Below the pieces are notes generated by a model, which searched no databases, had not been told where the DNA came from, and worked only from the letters and a program-made list of their open reading frames with translations. A stretch of 64,000 nucleotides of DNA from Rhizobiales bacterium NRL2 (GTDB lineage: Bacteria; Pseudomonadota; Alphaproteobacteria; Minwuiales; Minwuiaceae), in the NCBI GenBank assembly GCA_001664005.1, contig CP016093.1:3711031-3775030 (forward strand), in the 5' to 3' direction. This document shows positions 28,663 through 53,815 of the stretch, piece by piece (position 1 is the first letter of the stretch; each line of letters opens with the position of its first letter). The position numbers and the translations under genes are program-made.

Positions 28663-28884
28663 AGGCCCGACCTTGGCGGCCCGGTCGGCTACGCCAACCG
28701 CCTGCACGTGGAGGCCTCGCCGCTCCGCGACCGGTTGCAGGTCCTGCCGCCGCCCGCGCCGGTCAACGCCCGGAACTTCCAGATGACCTGACGCCGCCGC
28801 AACGAGGCGGATTCAGGGCTGCTCTGGCTCAAGGGCCTGATCCGCGAGACGCTGGCGGAAAGACGGGCGGAACTGGGGGTTTGA
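28663..28884 (+). pseudogene. Remnant of a LysR-family regulator (C-terminal end, with nonsense codon)
   Basis: One frame reads the end of a LysR effector domain: VGYANRLHVEASPLRDR, QVLPPPAPVNARNFQMT, then TGA where Trp is expected, then RRRNEADSGLLWLKGLIRET and AERRAELGV before a second stop. The pattern ...lpPp.lp...qm-W-h.R...dp.l.WLr..i is the usual LysR C terminus. The first three quarters of the gene are absent. The position, divergent from the SDR-amidohydrolase operon, is where a LysR activator of that operon would sit. Confidence 0.55.
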
Positions 28885-28908
28885 GGGGTGGAGGTTTGGT
28901 GCGCCTCG

Positions 28909-29004
28909 GAGGAGATAAGTTCGAACCTCCTGATTCAGGTGCTGGACGGCTGCAGCGTCATGCTCCGCGCCTTACCCGACGAAACCAGTTTATCCGACCC
29001 TTAA
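28909..29004 (+). pseudogene. Possible N-terminal fragment of a DNA methyltransferase
   Basis: The frame reads SSNLLIQVLDGCSVMLRALP then DETSLSDP and a stop. It resembles the first motif of N4/N6 DNA methyltransferases (xxLIQGDCLxVLRxLPDESVDxxVTDPPY), broken off before the catalytic PPY. It is only about 30 residues, so the match is tentative. It would fit debris of an integrated element beside the tRNA-Arg islet. Confidence 0.3.
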
Positions 29005-29440
29005 GCGGTAAATGACGGTGATGTTGCTGCCAAGCTATTAGCAAAGCTTCCTGCGAATTACGCATTCCGCAAGATGTGTATTGTACTACAACACCATCTT
29101 GGCAAGGGGTGGGTGCCGCCCCCCGTTGCATCCCCCCTGCCTGTAGCGCTTCCCGGGCATCGAGCCAATCCAGCGCCAGAGAATCGTCTTGCCGTTTCAT
29201 CACGCGCATACTCAGGTCGGTGCACCACCACTTTGGGGGAACCTCTAAGCTCCCACGAAGACCTCCATGGCTCTCCCGAGAAGCCAAAGGGCGTTCCTGT
29301 CCCTTGGAACCCTGGCCAACCCTCCGCCGATTGAATGCCGCCAGCGTTTCTCCACAAATCATCAATACCGTGAACAAACCACGACAGGTTCCTTCAAAAA
29401 TGGTAGAATCCGCATCTGTCAAACCTAGAGAACCAAATTT
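29005..29440. other. Gene-free edge of the AT-rich islet
   Basis: About 430 bp with intermediate base composition. Open frames on both strands show no family resemblance and conflicting frames. I see no promoter I can defend beyond a TAGAAT hexamer about 40 bp before the next gene. It separates decayed gene fragments on the left from the intact AT-rich gene on the right. Confidence 0.5.
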
Positions 29441-31147
29441 ATGCCAAGCTACACTCACACCAAACTAATTAAGCAAATAGAGCAGCTTGATGATCTCCCG
29501 TCGGAGCCAGGAACTCTAAGTACGTGGGTTCAAGCTGGTCAGCACCTACAATTTCTTCAGAATAACGCAACTTCAGACGAAATTGTGATCTACGGATCTG
29601 GTCCTTATTCATTCGTATATTCTATTGTTGTTCCCAATAAACAGTTGGTCTCGGACCCCCTGGAAGACCTCCTTAGTTGGAGCTGTAATCCATACACTAG
29701 TATCGCTAGCTATGTTTATGGCGGTGGTCGCGAGGACGTTTGGATTGAACGCGAGGAGACTACTCGTGGTTCAAAAGCGCTTAATGAAGGCAGGGACCTT
29801 ATTTTTGGACGTACATTTGAAGGTTGGACCGGCAGTGACCGCGACTATTTTGAAGTCAGCCAAGAATATTCCCATCTAGCGGGAATTCACTGGCGCCCAG
29901 AATACAAAGCTTATTGCAGGTTTGATGAAAACGGTGACATTCAACACGTCGTATCGATCTCTGTACGAGACGATAATGATGTCTCACTTGTTTCTTTTGA
30001 ATGGAAGACATTAGAAATGTATCTAGCAATAGCAGACTGCAGCCTAGTGAGAATGTTTGATTTTACTCTACTAAATAGAAAGTCGTTCTCAGGCTGGCCC
30101 GACGGCCCGGAGCAAATTATTCGCGAGTCAAATGATTTTCTGTACCGTCAAAAAATCTCGGGTAATAGTACGTATACGAGAGGTGTTCAAATCATCAAGA
30201 TTCGGCGTGCCGCTGAAGAAATTATGCTAGAATTTAAAAATAGTGGCGTGCGAGAGAGCAATGAGAATTATGTTGAGTTTATCGCGGAAGACTGGCGCAA
30301 TGGCCGAGTTACTAGAATTTCTACAAACCCAATGGCTACAACAAATTATTTTGTGGCAAAGGAAAATAATCTCCCATTTGAACTATCACCAGCCTTCTTT
30401 CGACCAGAAGTACTTTCAAAGTATAAAACGGATCGGGAAAAATATACGTTGGGTGAGCGCGATATACGCTGTCGATCATCGTGGCATCTTAGGGGATATG
30501 ACGTAAATAAAGCAGGACAGGTACACGCATATATTTGTGATCTTCAGAAGCTGCCATATTCAGAACAGCTCCATTGGCTCGTTTACAATGAGGCTCCAAA
30601 AGAAAGCATATCAGAGCGTGCATTCACAAATGATTTTAAAGGCCAATTCGTTACCTACACCCCTCCAAGGGAAGCTGTGCTGTCTATACTGCGGCGCTGG
30701 AAAGATAGACGTACAGAATGGTGGAGACTTCGTGACAAGACTCTTTTAGATAGAGCAAACCCTCCCCTCACATCGAGTAAGGACGAGTGGGGAGATGCAA
30801 TGATGGACTTATCAAAGCTTGTGACTGAAGGATTCATCATTAAATTTATTCGGAAAAAACTAGATGATTTGTCTATTGATTATGACAACAAGGAAATGAG
30901 TATTGTATTGCTAGAGAAGTATTTAAATAGCCGTCTTGATTCAAGTGAAATTGTTCAGCTTACCGGACTAAGAACAATTCAATCAATCCGTACAAAAATA
31001 AAGGGGCATGCAAGCGGTCGAGAAAGTGAACGCATCGCTAAAGAGGCAATATCGTCTTTTAGTAGTTTTGCAAAACATTTCGATCATATTTGCGAGATGT
31101 TGGCTATCGAACTGGAAATGATAGATCGCGAATTTTCAGATAATTAA
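29441..31147 (+). CDS. Unrecognised 568-residue protein in an AT-rich islet beside tRNA-Arg
   Basis: I do not recognise the family. The gene is strikingly AT-rich (two 60-bp lines I counted were 45% and 27% GC), with AT-ending codons unlike its neighbours, which indicates transfer. No signal peptide or membrane segment. The N-terminal half is beta-rich (DEIVIYGSGPYSFVYSIVVP, EYSHLAGIHWRPEYKAY). A conserved-looking middle carries RSSWHLRGYD, VHAYICDLQKLPYSEQLHWL and VYNEAP (about 348-385). The C-terminal 150 residues are helical and charged (RRWKDRRTEWWRLRDKTLL, then a segment ending AKHFDHICEMLAIELEMID). It is a lone cargo gene at a tRNA. Defence or mobile-element function is possible, not shown. 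Confidence 0.85.
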   Translation: MPSYTHTKLIKQIEQLDDLPSEPGTLSTWVQAGQHLQFLQNNATSDEIVIYGSGPYSFVYSIVVPNKQLVSDPLEDLLSWSCNPYTSIASYVYGGGREDVWIEREETTRGSKALNEGRDLIFGRTFEGWTGSDRDYFEVSQEYSHLAGIHWRPEYKAYCRFDENGDIQHVVSISVRDDNDVSLVSFEWKTLEMYLAIADCSLVRMFDFTLLNRKSFSGWPDGPEQIIRESNDFLYRQKISGNSTYTRGVQIIKIRRAAEEIMLEFKNSGVRESNENYVEFIAEDWRNGRVTRISTNPMATTNYFVAKENNLPFELSPAFFRPEVLSKYKTDREKYTLGERDIRCRSSWHLRGYDVNKAGQVHAYICDLQKLPYSEQLHWLVYNEAPKESISERAFTNDFKGQFVTYTPPREAVLSILRRWKDRRTEWWRLRDKTLLDRANPPLTSSKDEWGDAMMDLSKLVTEGFIIKFIRKKLDDLSIDYDNKEMSIVLLEKYLNSRLDSSEIVQLTGLRTIQSIRTKIKGHASGRESERIAKEAISSFSSFAKHFDHICEMLAIELEMIDREFSDN

Positions 31148-31187
31148 GTGAGCGACCTCAGTACTTTTTTCGCCAAAATGTATTAAG

Positions 31188-31200
31188 GGGCTTCGCCCCT
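31188..31200. terminator. Short GGGGC-TTC-GCCCC hairpin after the 568-residue gene
   Basis: A five-bp GC stem with a three-base loop, about 40 bp after the stop codon, without a proper T-tract. It could end the transcript weakly. A much longer hairpin follows directly. Confidence 0.35.
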
Positions 31201-31205
31201 CGCGT

Positions 31206-31266
31206 GCGCAAGGAATCCGAACGTCTCCCCGCTATGCGGGGTCCCTCGTTCGGAGCCTCCTTGCGC
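31206..31266. repeat. Long imperfect hairpin at the right edge of the islet
   Basis: Nested arms: GCGCAAGGA...TCCTTGCGC outside, TCCGAACG...CGTTCGGA in the middle and CCCC-GCTATGC-GGGG at the tip. It is a 61-nt structure with three matched stems. It lies between the AT-rich gene and the tRNA. It may be a terminator, a REP-like element or a recombination structure. Confidence 0.6.
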
Positions 31267-31364
31267 TTGCTACCCCCATCCTCGCCGGAAGGCAAGGTTG
31301 CGTGTGCAACCCACAAGAACAGTTAGAACCAGCTGGAACGCCTCTTCTGTTCTGGTGGGGTAAA

Positions 31365-31441
31365 TGGTGCGCCCTGCAGGACTCGAACCTGCGACCCCAA
31401 GCTTAGAAGGCTCGTGCTCTATCCAGCTGAGCTAAGGGCGC
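31365..31441 (-). tRNA. tRNA-Arg (anticodon TCT)
   Basis: Complement folds as a 77-nt tRNA: acceptor GCGCCCT/AGGGCGC, D-arm AGCTCAGCTGGATAGAGC, anticodon loop CCTTCTAAG giving TCT, T-arm GCAGGTTCGAACCTGC, with an encoded CCA. Its 3' end faces the AT-rich islet, the usual integration side for tRNA-targeting elements. Confidence 0.97.
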
Positions 31442-51791: not shown

Positions 51792-51868
<77 letters not shown>

Positions 51869-52051
51869 ATGTTTTCAAAGGATTACTGGAAATGACCAGC
51901 CCTTTGTTCTTTTCGGGTAAGCGCAGGGTAAGCAAGGCGAGCACGGACTTGCCAGGTGCGATGCCGCTGCCCTCGCCCCACGCGACGCTTTCTCTATCTG
52001 TTGGACCGGCTCACGGGCGACGTGAATACCATTTAAGGTAGGCCATTTGAG

Positions 52052-52645
52052 ATGTTTAGACGTCATCGCGACAGGTCGGACTTAATCGCTGCATATCAAG
52101 AGTACGGAGCGTCAATTCGGCAGGCAAAGAAAGATCAATGGGCTGGTATTTACTATTCACTACTTATTTTTTCCGCCATTATCGCCTATATGCATCAAAA
52201 TTCTACTGCTGCATGCGGATATTATGAACCGTTACCCTGGATTGTCTGGATATCTTATTTGTTTGTTATCATCTTTTCCATATTCAATCTGTGGAACTTG
52301 CATTATAACATCATGCTATATCGCAAACGAGCGGGATGCGTAGGGCGTTTTATGAGTACAGAATTTCGCAAGATTGTCGCGTCGGATGATATCGAAAATA
52401 TTTCAAGGGGCCATGAATTTCCATTCTTGTTTTCTATGTTTTTACTATTTACGGGATGGTTCGCTTTCAAAGAATTGGGCATCAAAATATACTTGTCAAA
52501 AAGTGATTTCTATATTGACGGCAATGACTGGTTTTCATTTACAGTTCTTATTTTGGGCGGATTGCTCGGATGGGTCGCCGCTAAATATTTCTGCGGCGGC
52601 AGGCGGCTCGCCTCCAAACCAAAGAGTGGAGGTAAATCCGTATAG
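52052..52645 (+). CDS. Unrecognised four-helix membrane protein in an AT-rich islet
   Basis: 197 residues, family not recognised. Cytoplasmic-looking basic N terminus (MFRRHRDRSDLIAAYQEYGA), then four hydrophobic segments at about 30-47 (GIYYSLLIFSAIIAYM), 63-84 (WIVWISYLFVIIFSIFNLW), 126-142 (FLFSMFLLFTGWFAF) and 164-183 (FTVLILGGLLGWVAAKYF). A helical loop between TM2 and TM3 and a basic tail (GGRRLASKPKSGGKSV) complete it. The DNA is clearly more AT-rich than the flanks, indicating transfer. It is the first gene after tRNA-Arg(CCG). No partner with known function. Confidence 0.8.
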   Translation: MFRRHRDRSDLIAAYQEYGASIRQAKKDQWAGIYYSLLIFSAIIAYMHQNSTAACGYYEPLPWIVWISYLFVIIFSIFNLWNLHYNIMLYRKRAGCVGRFMSTEFRKIVASDDIENISRGHEFPFLFSMFLLFTGWFAFKELGIKIYLSKSDFYIDGNDWFSFTVLILGGLLGWVAAKYFCGGRRLASKPKSGGKSV

Positions 52646-53051
52646 AAACTTGATTCGCAAATGCAACTCTACAATCTATATTTAGATTCTCTCGGCTGCG
52701 TATTCGGCATGCTAATTTACTCCCACCAACAACCTGGGCTTCACCAATACATTGTTGAAGACTCTTGGCTACGCCACCGTCATTGTCAGGCCCAACGCAT
52801 CAGTAATCAGCTAAGCGATGAGCTTGGTGACGAAGAATTGCGGCCTCCTCGGCTACGAAGTGCGAAAAGAATGTGGGAATTCGACACCGCCATGACGCTT
52901 TTCGTTGTTCCGCAGGCCGAGTCACTCAGTCCGTCCTGCCGCATTTCCTAAATCTGAAGGCAACATTCACGCAAATCGCAATTTGATTTTCTGTGACTGC
53001 TGGGCTTGAAAGATTGATCTTATAAATAAAAATCAAACTATTCTACTGACT
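52646..53051. other. Gap inside the second AT-rich islet
   Basis: About 400 bp between two convergent membrane-protein genes. A 96-codon open frame at 52661-52951 has no convincing amino-acid pattern. Another frame reads NNLGFTNTLLKTLGYATVIV before a stop, which may be the trace of a dead gene. The last 60 bp are very AT-rich. No repeat matching the tRNA 3' end was found. Confidence 0.4.
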
Positions 53052-53519
53052 CTACCAGTCGAAAGGAAATTTCCGCGATTCAGGCGCTTTGTTTAAATTT
53101 TTTCGAGGTCGTGCTTTAGGTGATGAGTCGAGAGCTTGTTTTTTCATCATTTTTTCTAATTTTTTTCCAATATACAGACTCATTAATAATTCCGTAGCTA
53201 AAAATAGAAAGACAATCAAATTAATCCAGCCCCAGGTTTCATAGTGAAATTCAATCGGAACAAACGGCTGATAGAGGACAACGATGATTGCGTGTGCTAT
53301 GCACAATGAACCGAATCGCCCCGTCATCTGGACGAGCTGCCAAGCCCAGAGCACCGCAGCCACCGACACGAAAATGCGCATCAGCGTGAAATACCCGTCC
53401 GGCATATCGGGCGAATCTGGAAATCTTCCCATATCAAAGCCGTGATAACTAAAAAAACTATCTACGACTACGATACCGATCATCACTATTGAAATTATTC
53501 GAAACGAAAATGTGAGCAT
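53052..53519 (-). CDS. DUF6804-like small membrane protein in the AT-rich islet
   Basis: 155 residues from ATG (MLTFSFRIISIVMIGIVVVD), preceded by GAGG; a GTG 14 codons upstream is an alternative. Four hydrophobic segments: about 4-22, YFTLMRIFVSVAAVLWAWQL, SLCIAHAIIVVLYQPFVPIE, and WINLIVFLFLATELLMSLYI, then a Lys-rich tail. The middle pattern (YxxLR..., LYQPFVPIEF, W..I) resembles DUF6804 proteins, which have LFNPiiPi-h followed by W. Function unknown. AT-rich, so acquired with its neighbour. Confidence 0.7.
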   Translation of the reverse strand: MLTFSFRIISIVMIGIVVVDSFFSYHGFDMGRFPDSPDMPDGYFTLMRIFVSVAAVLWAWQLVQMTGRFGSLCIAHAIIVVLYQPFVPIEFHYETWGWINLIVFLFLATELLMSLYIGKKLEKMMKKQALDSSPKARPRKNLNKAPESRKFPFDW

Positions 53520-53578
53520 CCTGTCCTCAATTTTTGCCAGCCTGTTCACAAAAACAATCACGTGCCAAACTAGCGACC

Positions 53579-53815
53579 CTACTCACACCGGTACGTGACC
53601 GTGCCGTCCAGGGCGTTGTCGGGGACCAGGCGGGCGGTCTTGCCGTACTCGGCGCAGTGCTCGGCCGCGCGCGCCGCGGTTTCCTTGTCCTGCCAGAGCG
53701 CGATCTCGTCGAAGCGAACGAATTCGCTGTTGCCGAATTCCGGTTCCGGGTGGCCGCAGGCGGCGAGCCCGGCGGCGACGGCCGCCAGCGCGGCGATGGT
53801 GATGACGCGGTTCAT
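53579..53815 (-). CDS. Small putative lipoprotein
   Basis: 78 residues. Signal peptide with a lipobox: MNRVITIAALAAVAAGLAAC, Cys20 being the lipidation site. The mature part has FVRFDEIALWQDKETAARAA, HCAEYGKTARLVPD and TVTYRCE. GC-rich, so it marks the resumption of normal chromosome after the islet. Envelope-localised, role unknown. I do not recognise a family beyond the lipoprotein signal. Confidence 0.75.
   Translation of the reverse strand: MNRVITIAALAAVAAGLAACGHPEPEFGNSEFVRFDEIALWQDKETAARAAEHCAEYGKTARLVPDNALDGTVTYRCE

Follow-up and report, generated by a model that had tools for sequence, protein, structure and literature searches.

A lone AT-rich gene in a tRNA-Arg(TCT) slot

The window analysed here is a stretch of 64,000 nucleotides of the Rhizobiales bacterium NRL2 genome (contig CP016093.1). 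The features that concern this study are collected in Table 1. At their centre is a single intact AT-rich gene, exactly where the first-pass annotation had placed it, which opens with ATG and has no internal stop in its 568 codons. Its GC content is 0.421 (GC3 0.37) against 0.678 for the rest of the window. The claim that base use here is unlike everything around it stands to the extent that 0/589 tiles of equal length outside the gene are as AT-rich, the lowest of them (at 51901) having a GC content of 0.446, but it has to be tempered for a second, smaller AT-rich stretch at about 52.0-53.5 kb. A scan for promoters and terminators gave nothing better than shuffled sequence.

Table 1. Positions of the gene, its domains and the surrounding elements within the window
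Feature	Position	Strand	Basis
Putative sensor-HEPN defence gene, 568 aa	29441..31147	+	ORF list, composition, homologues
Core of the N-terminal domain (residues 23-212), matched to the C-terminal sensor of Avs2/Avs3	29507..30076	+	hhalign, VIA-align
Middle region, residues 263-404	30227..30652	+	conservation: E375, W379, N383, P386
Helical bundle at the C terminus (residues 405-568), putative HEPN RNase	30653..31144	+	AF2, VIA-align
RX5H motif, R517 to H523 (RTKIKGH)	30989..31009	+	alignment conservation
tRNA-Arg(TCT), integration hotspot	31365..31441	-	ARAGORN; 3' end at 31365
Variable slot, SDR-gene flank to 3' end of tRNA-Arg(TCT)	28749..31361		comparison with genome G004
Decayed gene remnant, end of a LysR-type regulator by eye	28676..28885		congener homology
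9-base copy of tRNA-Arg 3' end (TGGTGCGCC), possible att remnant (weak)	28897..28905	+	repeat search

The second AT-rich stretch (51868-53600, GC 0.41-0.48) lies directly behind tRNA-Arg(CCG) at 51792-51868 and holds two short ORFs, 52052-52645 on the plus strand and 53052-53561 on the minus strand, which look membrane-protein-like by eye. It is another tRNA-Arg hotspot in the same window.

With the tRNA-Arg(TCT) gene read from the minus strand, its 3' end is the one nearer the AT-rich gene, and the position ascribed to the gene on first inspection is thus confirmed. In the closest genome (G004, locus L031) the flanks are 94-97% identical; the homology stops at 28748, resumes at 31362, and the contents between these points differ. 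In G004 the slot spans about 2.6 kb, and its only gene, likewise AT-rich but a different one (L031 7272-9290), encodes a 672-residue protein that matches the PADLOC models Old (E 5.9e-58), AriA (5.2e-41) and also GajA, and the Pfam models AAA_15 and OLD-like_TOPRIM, both above cut-off. This OLD-family nuclease, with its AAA ATPase and TOPRIM parts, is unrelated to the window protein, although both are lone and AT-rich. An identical tRNA slot thus contains, in the two genomes, single genes with no relation to each other, one being of a recognised defence type, and the slot swaps its cargo. A different cargo at the tRNA site in a close relative is what is expected of an island gene, and it is found here; the slot provides a clean natural case of one lone gene exchanged for another. 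The gene is foreign and horizontally acquired, a statement that rests solely on window composition and on the sister slot.

The borders of the slot are less informative. The decayed gene fragments reported beside the gene are borne out only in part: one remnant is 80% identical to a stretch in one congener (G006) and 73% to a stretch in another (G002), but the remainder up to 29440 is without identification. The 9-base copy of the tRNA end was equalled by 31 of 2000 shuffles, which makes it weak evidence for an att site, and the sister slot of G004 has no such repeat. No integrase is present among the ORFs of the slot itself. Nested inverted repeats can be seen by eye at 31185-31300, between the stop codon and the tRNA. 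The stretch 31148-31362 is single copy in each of seven genomes of the genus, which rules it out as a dispersed repeat.

A scattered family without a library model

The window protein has no match at cut-off in Pfam, NCBIfam, PADLOC or PHROGs (the last used for this protein only). With the 5027 models of PADLOC 2.0.0 it gave no match at E values up to 10, and the same collection matched neither 15 family members nor a further 10. Pfam produced no useful match for the homologues, scanned as seven proteins and then as 15 members, and NCBIfam none at cut-off for ten. Marginal matches were put down to chance. In NCBIfam, SAR1012_fam reached 17.5 bits over 12 residues (E 0.0025), where its cut-off is 40; the others were CBP_BcsR, RCF1-5-like_lid and DUF7511 (E 0.14-0.2), HutF_N in one family member (E 0.08) and NikR models in a Halobaculum copy (E 0.022 and 0.061). 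A sequence search of the PDB also returned nothing useful.

The distribution of the family is sparse but wide. As a single query the window protein found a match in its own genome only and had none in 95 other relatives searched, six congeners included; the vertical inheritance that would have spoken against the suggested defence role was not seen. A profile search placed the family in 11 of 398 Pseudomonadota genomes, its own genome counted. Plasmid matches came from nine records, including Pseudomonas, Rhodococcus and Halobaculum, and a query from a second subgroup matched 16 plasmid records (Shinella, Agrobacterium, Rhizobium, Fusobacteria and others). A relative with 44% identity is present in a Caldilineaceae MAG, and 13/5426 E. 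coli genomes carry a copy whose DNA is about 79% identical to that of a related gene. No match was found for two query proteins in 50,697 phage records. Amongst predicted viral contigs the single window protein gave none and the subgroup alignments some; a family member on one of these contigs (L053 5846-8371) has about 300 additional N-terminal residues of unknown kind.

Forty relatives from distant phyla, several of them bacterial together with the haloarchaea, were aligned with the window protein, although not all are independent. The 41 rows include two near-identical pairs (L049/L050 and L051/L052) and three partial sequences (L033, L035 and L040), the latter being left out of the N-domain profile (38 rows). 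Not aligned were duplicate plasmid hits (H2, H7), a fragment (L009), further plasmid hits (H29-H31, H33-H38) and three contigs (L066-L068). Three of the E. coli copies were viewed and one was aligned, leaving out 12 of the 13.

The C-terminal bundle and its RX4-5H motif

An AlphaFold2 model built from 15 alignment rows (mean pLDDT 73.3) agrees with the beta-rich N-terminal half and the helical C terminus that had been proposed from the letters alone, the C terminus appearing as a helical bundle. Blocks of ten residues from residue 411 on have a pLDDT of 70-92. A model from the single sequence (pLDDT 33.6) was discarded. The best solved match for the C-terminal domain in VIA-align is the HEPN protein 2hsb, with residues 421-567 superimposed at Z 5.9 (114 aligned, rmsd 4.0). 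This is below the VIA-align level that is safe for helical bundles; vinculin tails come next, at 4.3, and the HEPN toxin RnlA is listed at Z 3.6.

The fold match is not decisive alone. Among the 41 aligned sequences R517 and H523 are the sole positions that never vary, and their spacing is RX5H or RX4H. In the model the motif covers the last part of helix 508-520 and the loop after it. The catalytic motif of HEPN RNases is RX4-6H, in which the histidine and sometimes the arginine have been found necessary, and the associated acidic motif is Ex3[KR] (both from PMC3710099). The family spacing of 4 or 5 fulfils the former; by eye, the acidic motif takes the form E/D-x4-K/R in most rows, as against Ex3[KR]. 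Fold and motif taken together, the C-terminal domain is likely to be HEPN. Ribonuclease activity and dimerisation are inferences.

The middle region, between this bundle and the N-terminal domain, gave no match, and the VIA-align comparison barely tests it.

The N-terminal domain and the sensor of Avs2 and Avs3

The best VIA-align match pairs model residues 10-257 with residues 1838-2077 of Avs3 (8dgc_B, Z 10.9, 182 residues, rmsd 4.3), the structure in question being Avs3 bound to phage terminase. Other fold searches were less telling. In Foldseek against the PDB no match was significant: the best row for Avs3 had E 0.32, a probability of 0.60 and TM 0.21, and the top rows were efflux pumps with probabilities below 0.1, which were regarded as spurious. 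In addition, the BFVD search returned nothing at E <= 0.001. The housekeeping fold that such searches might have uncovered, and that would have counted against the original suggestion, did not appear; the best matches are the Avs sensor region and the HEPN bundle.

Independently of the model, profiles were compared with hhalign, using the last 330 residues of 11 Avs3 and 18 Avs2 proteins. This set includes near-identical rows (for example L128-L130), and some frames may end short. Two of its members (L120, L121) bear the RefSeq name Avs3a, and the PADLOC models for Avs proteins include PDLC02163 and PDLC02165 (Avs2), PDLC02167 (Avs3a) and PDLC02170 (Avs5). Each round consisted of nine N-domain and six control pairings. 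The family N-domain matched the combined Avs2 and Avs3 profile with a probability of 89.9 (P 1.7e-6, 164 columns, residues 23-212 of the window protein); P was 9.1e-6 against Avs3 alone and 7e-4 against Avs2 alone, and the best value in an earlier round with 12 Avs sequences was 5.2e-4. Block-shuffle nulls gave 0/150 in each of six sets (three pairings at two block sizes, three sets having 12-column blocks). As controls, the middle domain gave P 0.044-0.29, the C-terminal domain 0.12-0.69 and reversed profiles 0.13-0.72. Single subgroups are weaker (1.4e-4 to 0.093), that of the window protein having P 0.001 against Avs2 and Avs3 together and 0.093 against Avs3.

An HMM of the Avs2/3 sensor was run over 3124 ORFs at E <= 0.01. 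Apart from ORFs of the loci collected as Avs, only family members matched; these were five distinct genes (E 9e-4 to 4e-3), and the window protein was not among them. In the reverse search, made with the HMM of the family N-domain, none of the Avs ORFs reached E <= 0.01. Since HMM matches run in one direction only and the remaining signal is structural or profile-to-profile, the link to Avs is a distant one. An Avs-type sensor domain is nevertheless indicated, but at the N terminus, and with the reservations that the reverse search is empty and the window's own subgroup weaker. From the profile-profile and model matches we infer that the N-domain shares ancestry with the Avs2/Avs3 sensor.

It could be argued that the resemblance to Avs reflects no more than a general beta-rich fold, and that the family is a distant ApeA-type branch of the HEPN proteins with no phage sensor in common with Avs. 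The outline is the same: ApeA-NTD1, as portrayed in PMC3710099, comprises about 300 residues of mostly beta strands with conserved aromatics, is fused to HEPN and occurs in restriction-modification operons. A general fold does not sit easily with a colinear profile match to Avs2/3 that has clean nulls. Nor did Pfam, where ApeA models should presumably be present, give a useful match in any of 15 members, and an ApeA-type origin is unlikely, though it retains some weight.

Neighbours of the homologues

If the family serves defence, its copies may be expected to keep the company of defence genes, and a tally of neighbours had been suggested as a check. Twenty-seven loci were viewed. Known or candidate defence genes are present at nine of these, counting the window through the Old gene of the sister slot, and integrase, recombinase or prophage DNA at a further seven, whilst neither is clear at the remaining 11. 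The count was made by eye, has no background for comparison and leaves some neighbours unscanned (those of L037-L041 were read by eye only), so it is a description and not a test of enrichment. Together with the Old-like gene of the sister slot it supports the suggestion of anti-phage defence, originally offered from context only; defence itself is unmeasured.

The defence neighbours are diverse. In one type I restriction-modification operon the family gene lies inside hsdR...hsdM-hsdS (L064). Elsewhere it is accompanied by type I restriction and methyltransferase genes with FRG/PDC-S15 (L002), a restriction endonuclease with FRG (L058), a methyltransferase about 7 kb away with GIY-YIG (L059), PDC-S02 (L034), or SIR2-like and HNH genes, tRNA-Met and an integrase recognised by eye (L032). 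Of the two other such loci, one has a CBASS cluster (L003) and one is in E. coli; both are taken up below. Amongst the mobile loci, one has, at a tRNA-Arg(TCT) gene as in the window, an integrase recognised by eye (L033), one has the family gene directly after GmtY, GmtZ and GmtX (L004), one has P2-like late genes by eye (L065), and four have other integrase, recombinase or prophage DNA (L038, L041, L062, L063). Where neither category is clear, the surroundings include IS elements with a RAMP gene about 11.5 kb away (L006), toxin-antitoxin genes (L007, L060), a DUF262 gene about 5 kb away (L008), a weak Upx-like neighbour (L035) and thiC, identified by eye (L037, L040); L005, L036, L039 and L061 make up the rest.

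The two copies beside thiC belong to different bacterial families of the window's class and may mark a second insertion hotspot. At L036 (7855-9156, genome G325) the start of a DUF5677 gene overlaps the final bases of the family member, an operon-like arrangement.

These surroundings bear on two further readings. One is that the protein is a HEPN toxin, acting as a toxin or addiction module in the upkeep or competition of mobile elements and not in phage defence. The family is often carried on plasmids and integrative elements, and HEPN domains are common as toxins (PMC3710099). However, no small partner gene was seen to be conserved: the window gene has its slot to itself, and the neighbours vary between the viewed loci. 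A sensor-like N-terminal domain of 260 residues is also unusual for HEPN toxins, and a role of this kind seems improbable. In the other reading the N-domain binds a small molecule or nucleic acid, and the protein carries out the response of a signalling system, for instance a neighbouring CBASS. It draws on the single homologue that clusters with SAVED, CD-NTase, ThiF and Mov34/JAB genes. CBASS is found at only 1/27 viewed loci, however, many copies have unrelated neighbours, and SAVED and CARF models matched none of the scanned members, leaving a signalling role with little to recommend it.

An ordinary, vertically inherited gene with an unknown housekeeping role has nothing in its favour beyond an intact reading frame, and is rejected because the slot in the sister genome holds another gene, the more so as the gene was not found in six congeners searched and has a GC of 0.42 in a 0.68 window.

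A possible one-protein receptor and its relation to known systems

The preferred reading, to which we give a probability of roughly 0.7, is that the gene is cargo of a tRNA-Arg hotspot and that its product is a one-protein effector of abortive infection, a HEPN ribonuclease under the control of an Avs-type sensor. The enzymatic activity, the RNA target and the phage trigger are inferred. In such a scheme the N-terminal Avs2/3-type sensor would bind a protein that the phage produces as it infects the cell; the large terminase subunit heads the candidates for this trigger, which is a guess from ancestry. The bound sensor would then switch on the C-terminal HEPN domain, probably dimeric, and this domain may cut host RNA, phage RNA or both by means of R517 and H523; the cleavage would stop the infected cell. 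The data themselves establish the gene and its foreign composition, the slot used by an Old-like gene in the sister genome, a scattered family that is often found in mobile or defence DNA, the invariant RX4-5H, and the resemblance of the N-domain to the Avs2/3 sensor region. With no activity or phage assay, the RNase activity, dimerisation, phage trigger and cell shutdown are inferred.

A more specific proposal can be made, but only tentatively, and the balance is at present somewhat against it. The family may have arisen as an Avs ‘sensor cap’, detached from the STAND NTPase and repeats and wired instead to a HEPN domain, so that it reads the same conserved phage part, the large terminase subunit, but answers by cleaving RNA and not DNA; as part of the same conjecture, this widespread unnamed family would be a minimal, one-protein pattern-recognition receptor. 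If this is right, bacterial pattern recognition does not need an NLR-like NTPase machine, since a sensor alone can gate an RNase. The sensor would be a portable module, which would explain how small defence genes cover many phages, and the family would offer a simple two-domain system for learning how recognition of a phage protein switches on a HEPN enzyme.

Avs2 is reported to use a C-terminal sensor to recognise its target, and the target of Avs families 1-3 to be the large terminase subunit (PMC12724215, after Gao et al.); PMC12931631 has Avs1-Avs4 recognising terminase, portal or another phage protein. Residues 23-212 of the family are colinear with the C-terminal end of Avs2/Avs3, but the sensor is at the N terminus, no STAND NTPase, repeat array or N-terminal nuclease was found, and the window protein has 568 residues whereas the Avs frames collected have about 1300-2180. 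Since Pfam, NCBIfam and PADLOC gave no NTPase match in the window protein or in the homologues scanned, this is not an Avs protein or system, though it may work like a stripped-down one.

With the HEPN abortive-infection ribonucleases (AbiD/F/J, ApeA, RnlA and others) the family shares the C-terminal bundle and the invariant RX4-5H. It matches none of their models, however, and neither its N-terminal nor its middle domain could be linked to a domain described in the text of PMC3710099 consulted. Similar in layout is DS-11, one of the systems from DefensePredictor (PMC13092281), which is likewise a single protein with a regulatory domain and a HEPN domain. Its protection is lost when the HEPN catalytic residues are mutated, but it carries a CBS domain, unlike the family. 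HEPN domains are present in 4/31 additional systems validated in that study, and, in the absence of a sequence comparison, a relative of the family could be among the other three.

The two modules are each of a known kind, and it is their combination that is unnamed in the libraries searched. It appears in no library model scanned, and no mention of it was found in the literature so far as this was accessible. No papers were returned for the accessions of the E. coli and P. aeruginosa copies or of two E. coli neighbours, nor for Avs3, HEPN and terminase together. The literature searched was of open licence only and without supplements, so the family is not shown to be unpublished, and no such claim is made.

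The E. coli copies of the family allow direct testing. The copy at L055 (8536-10233, WP_047632990) lies in an island with an IntA integrase at ssrA, together with a NACHT protein that has an Avs1b-like stretch. The N-terminal stretch of the NACHT protein resembles CBASS endonuclease effectors, and the adjoining region (L055 1-8437) also encodes a large protein, part of which resembles Upx very weakly (E 0.028), and an unmatched protein of 482 residues. This cluster beside the homologue is possibly one defence operon.
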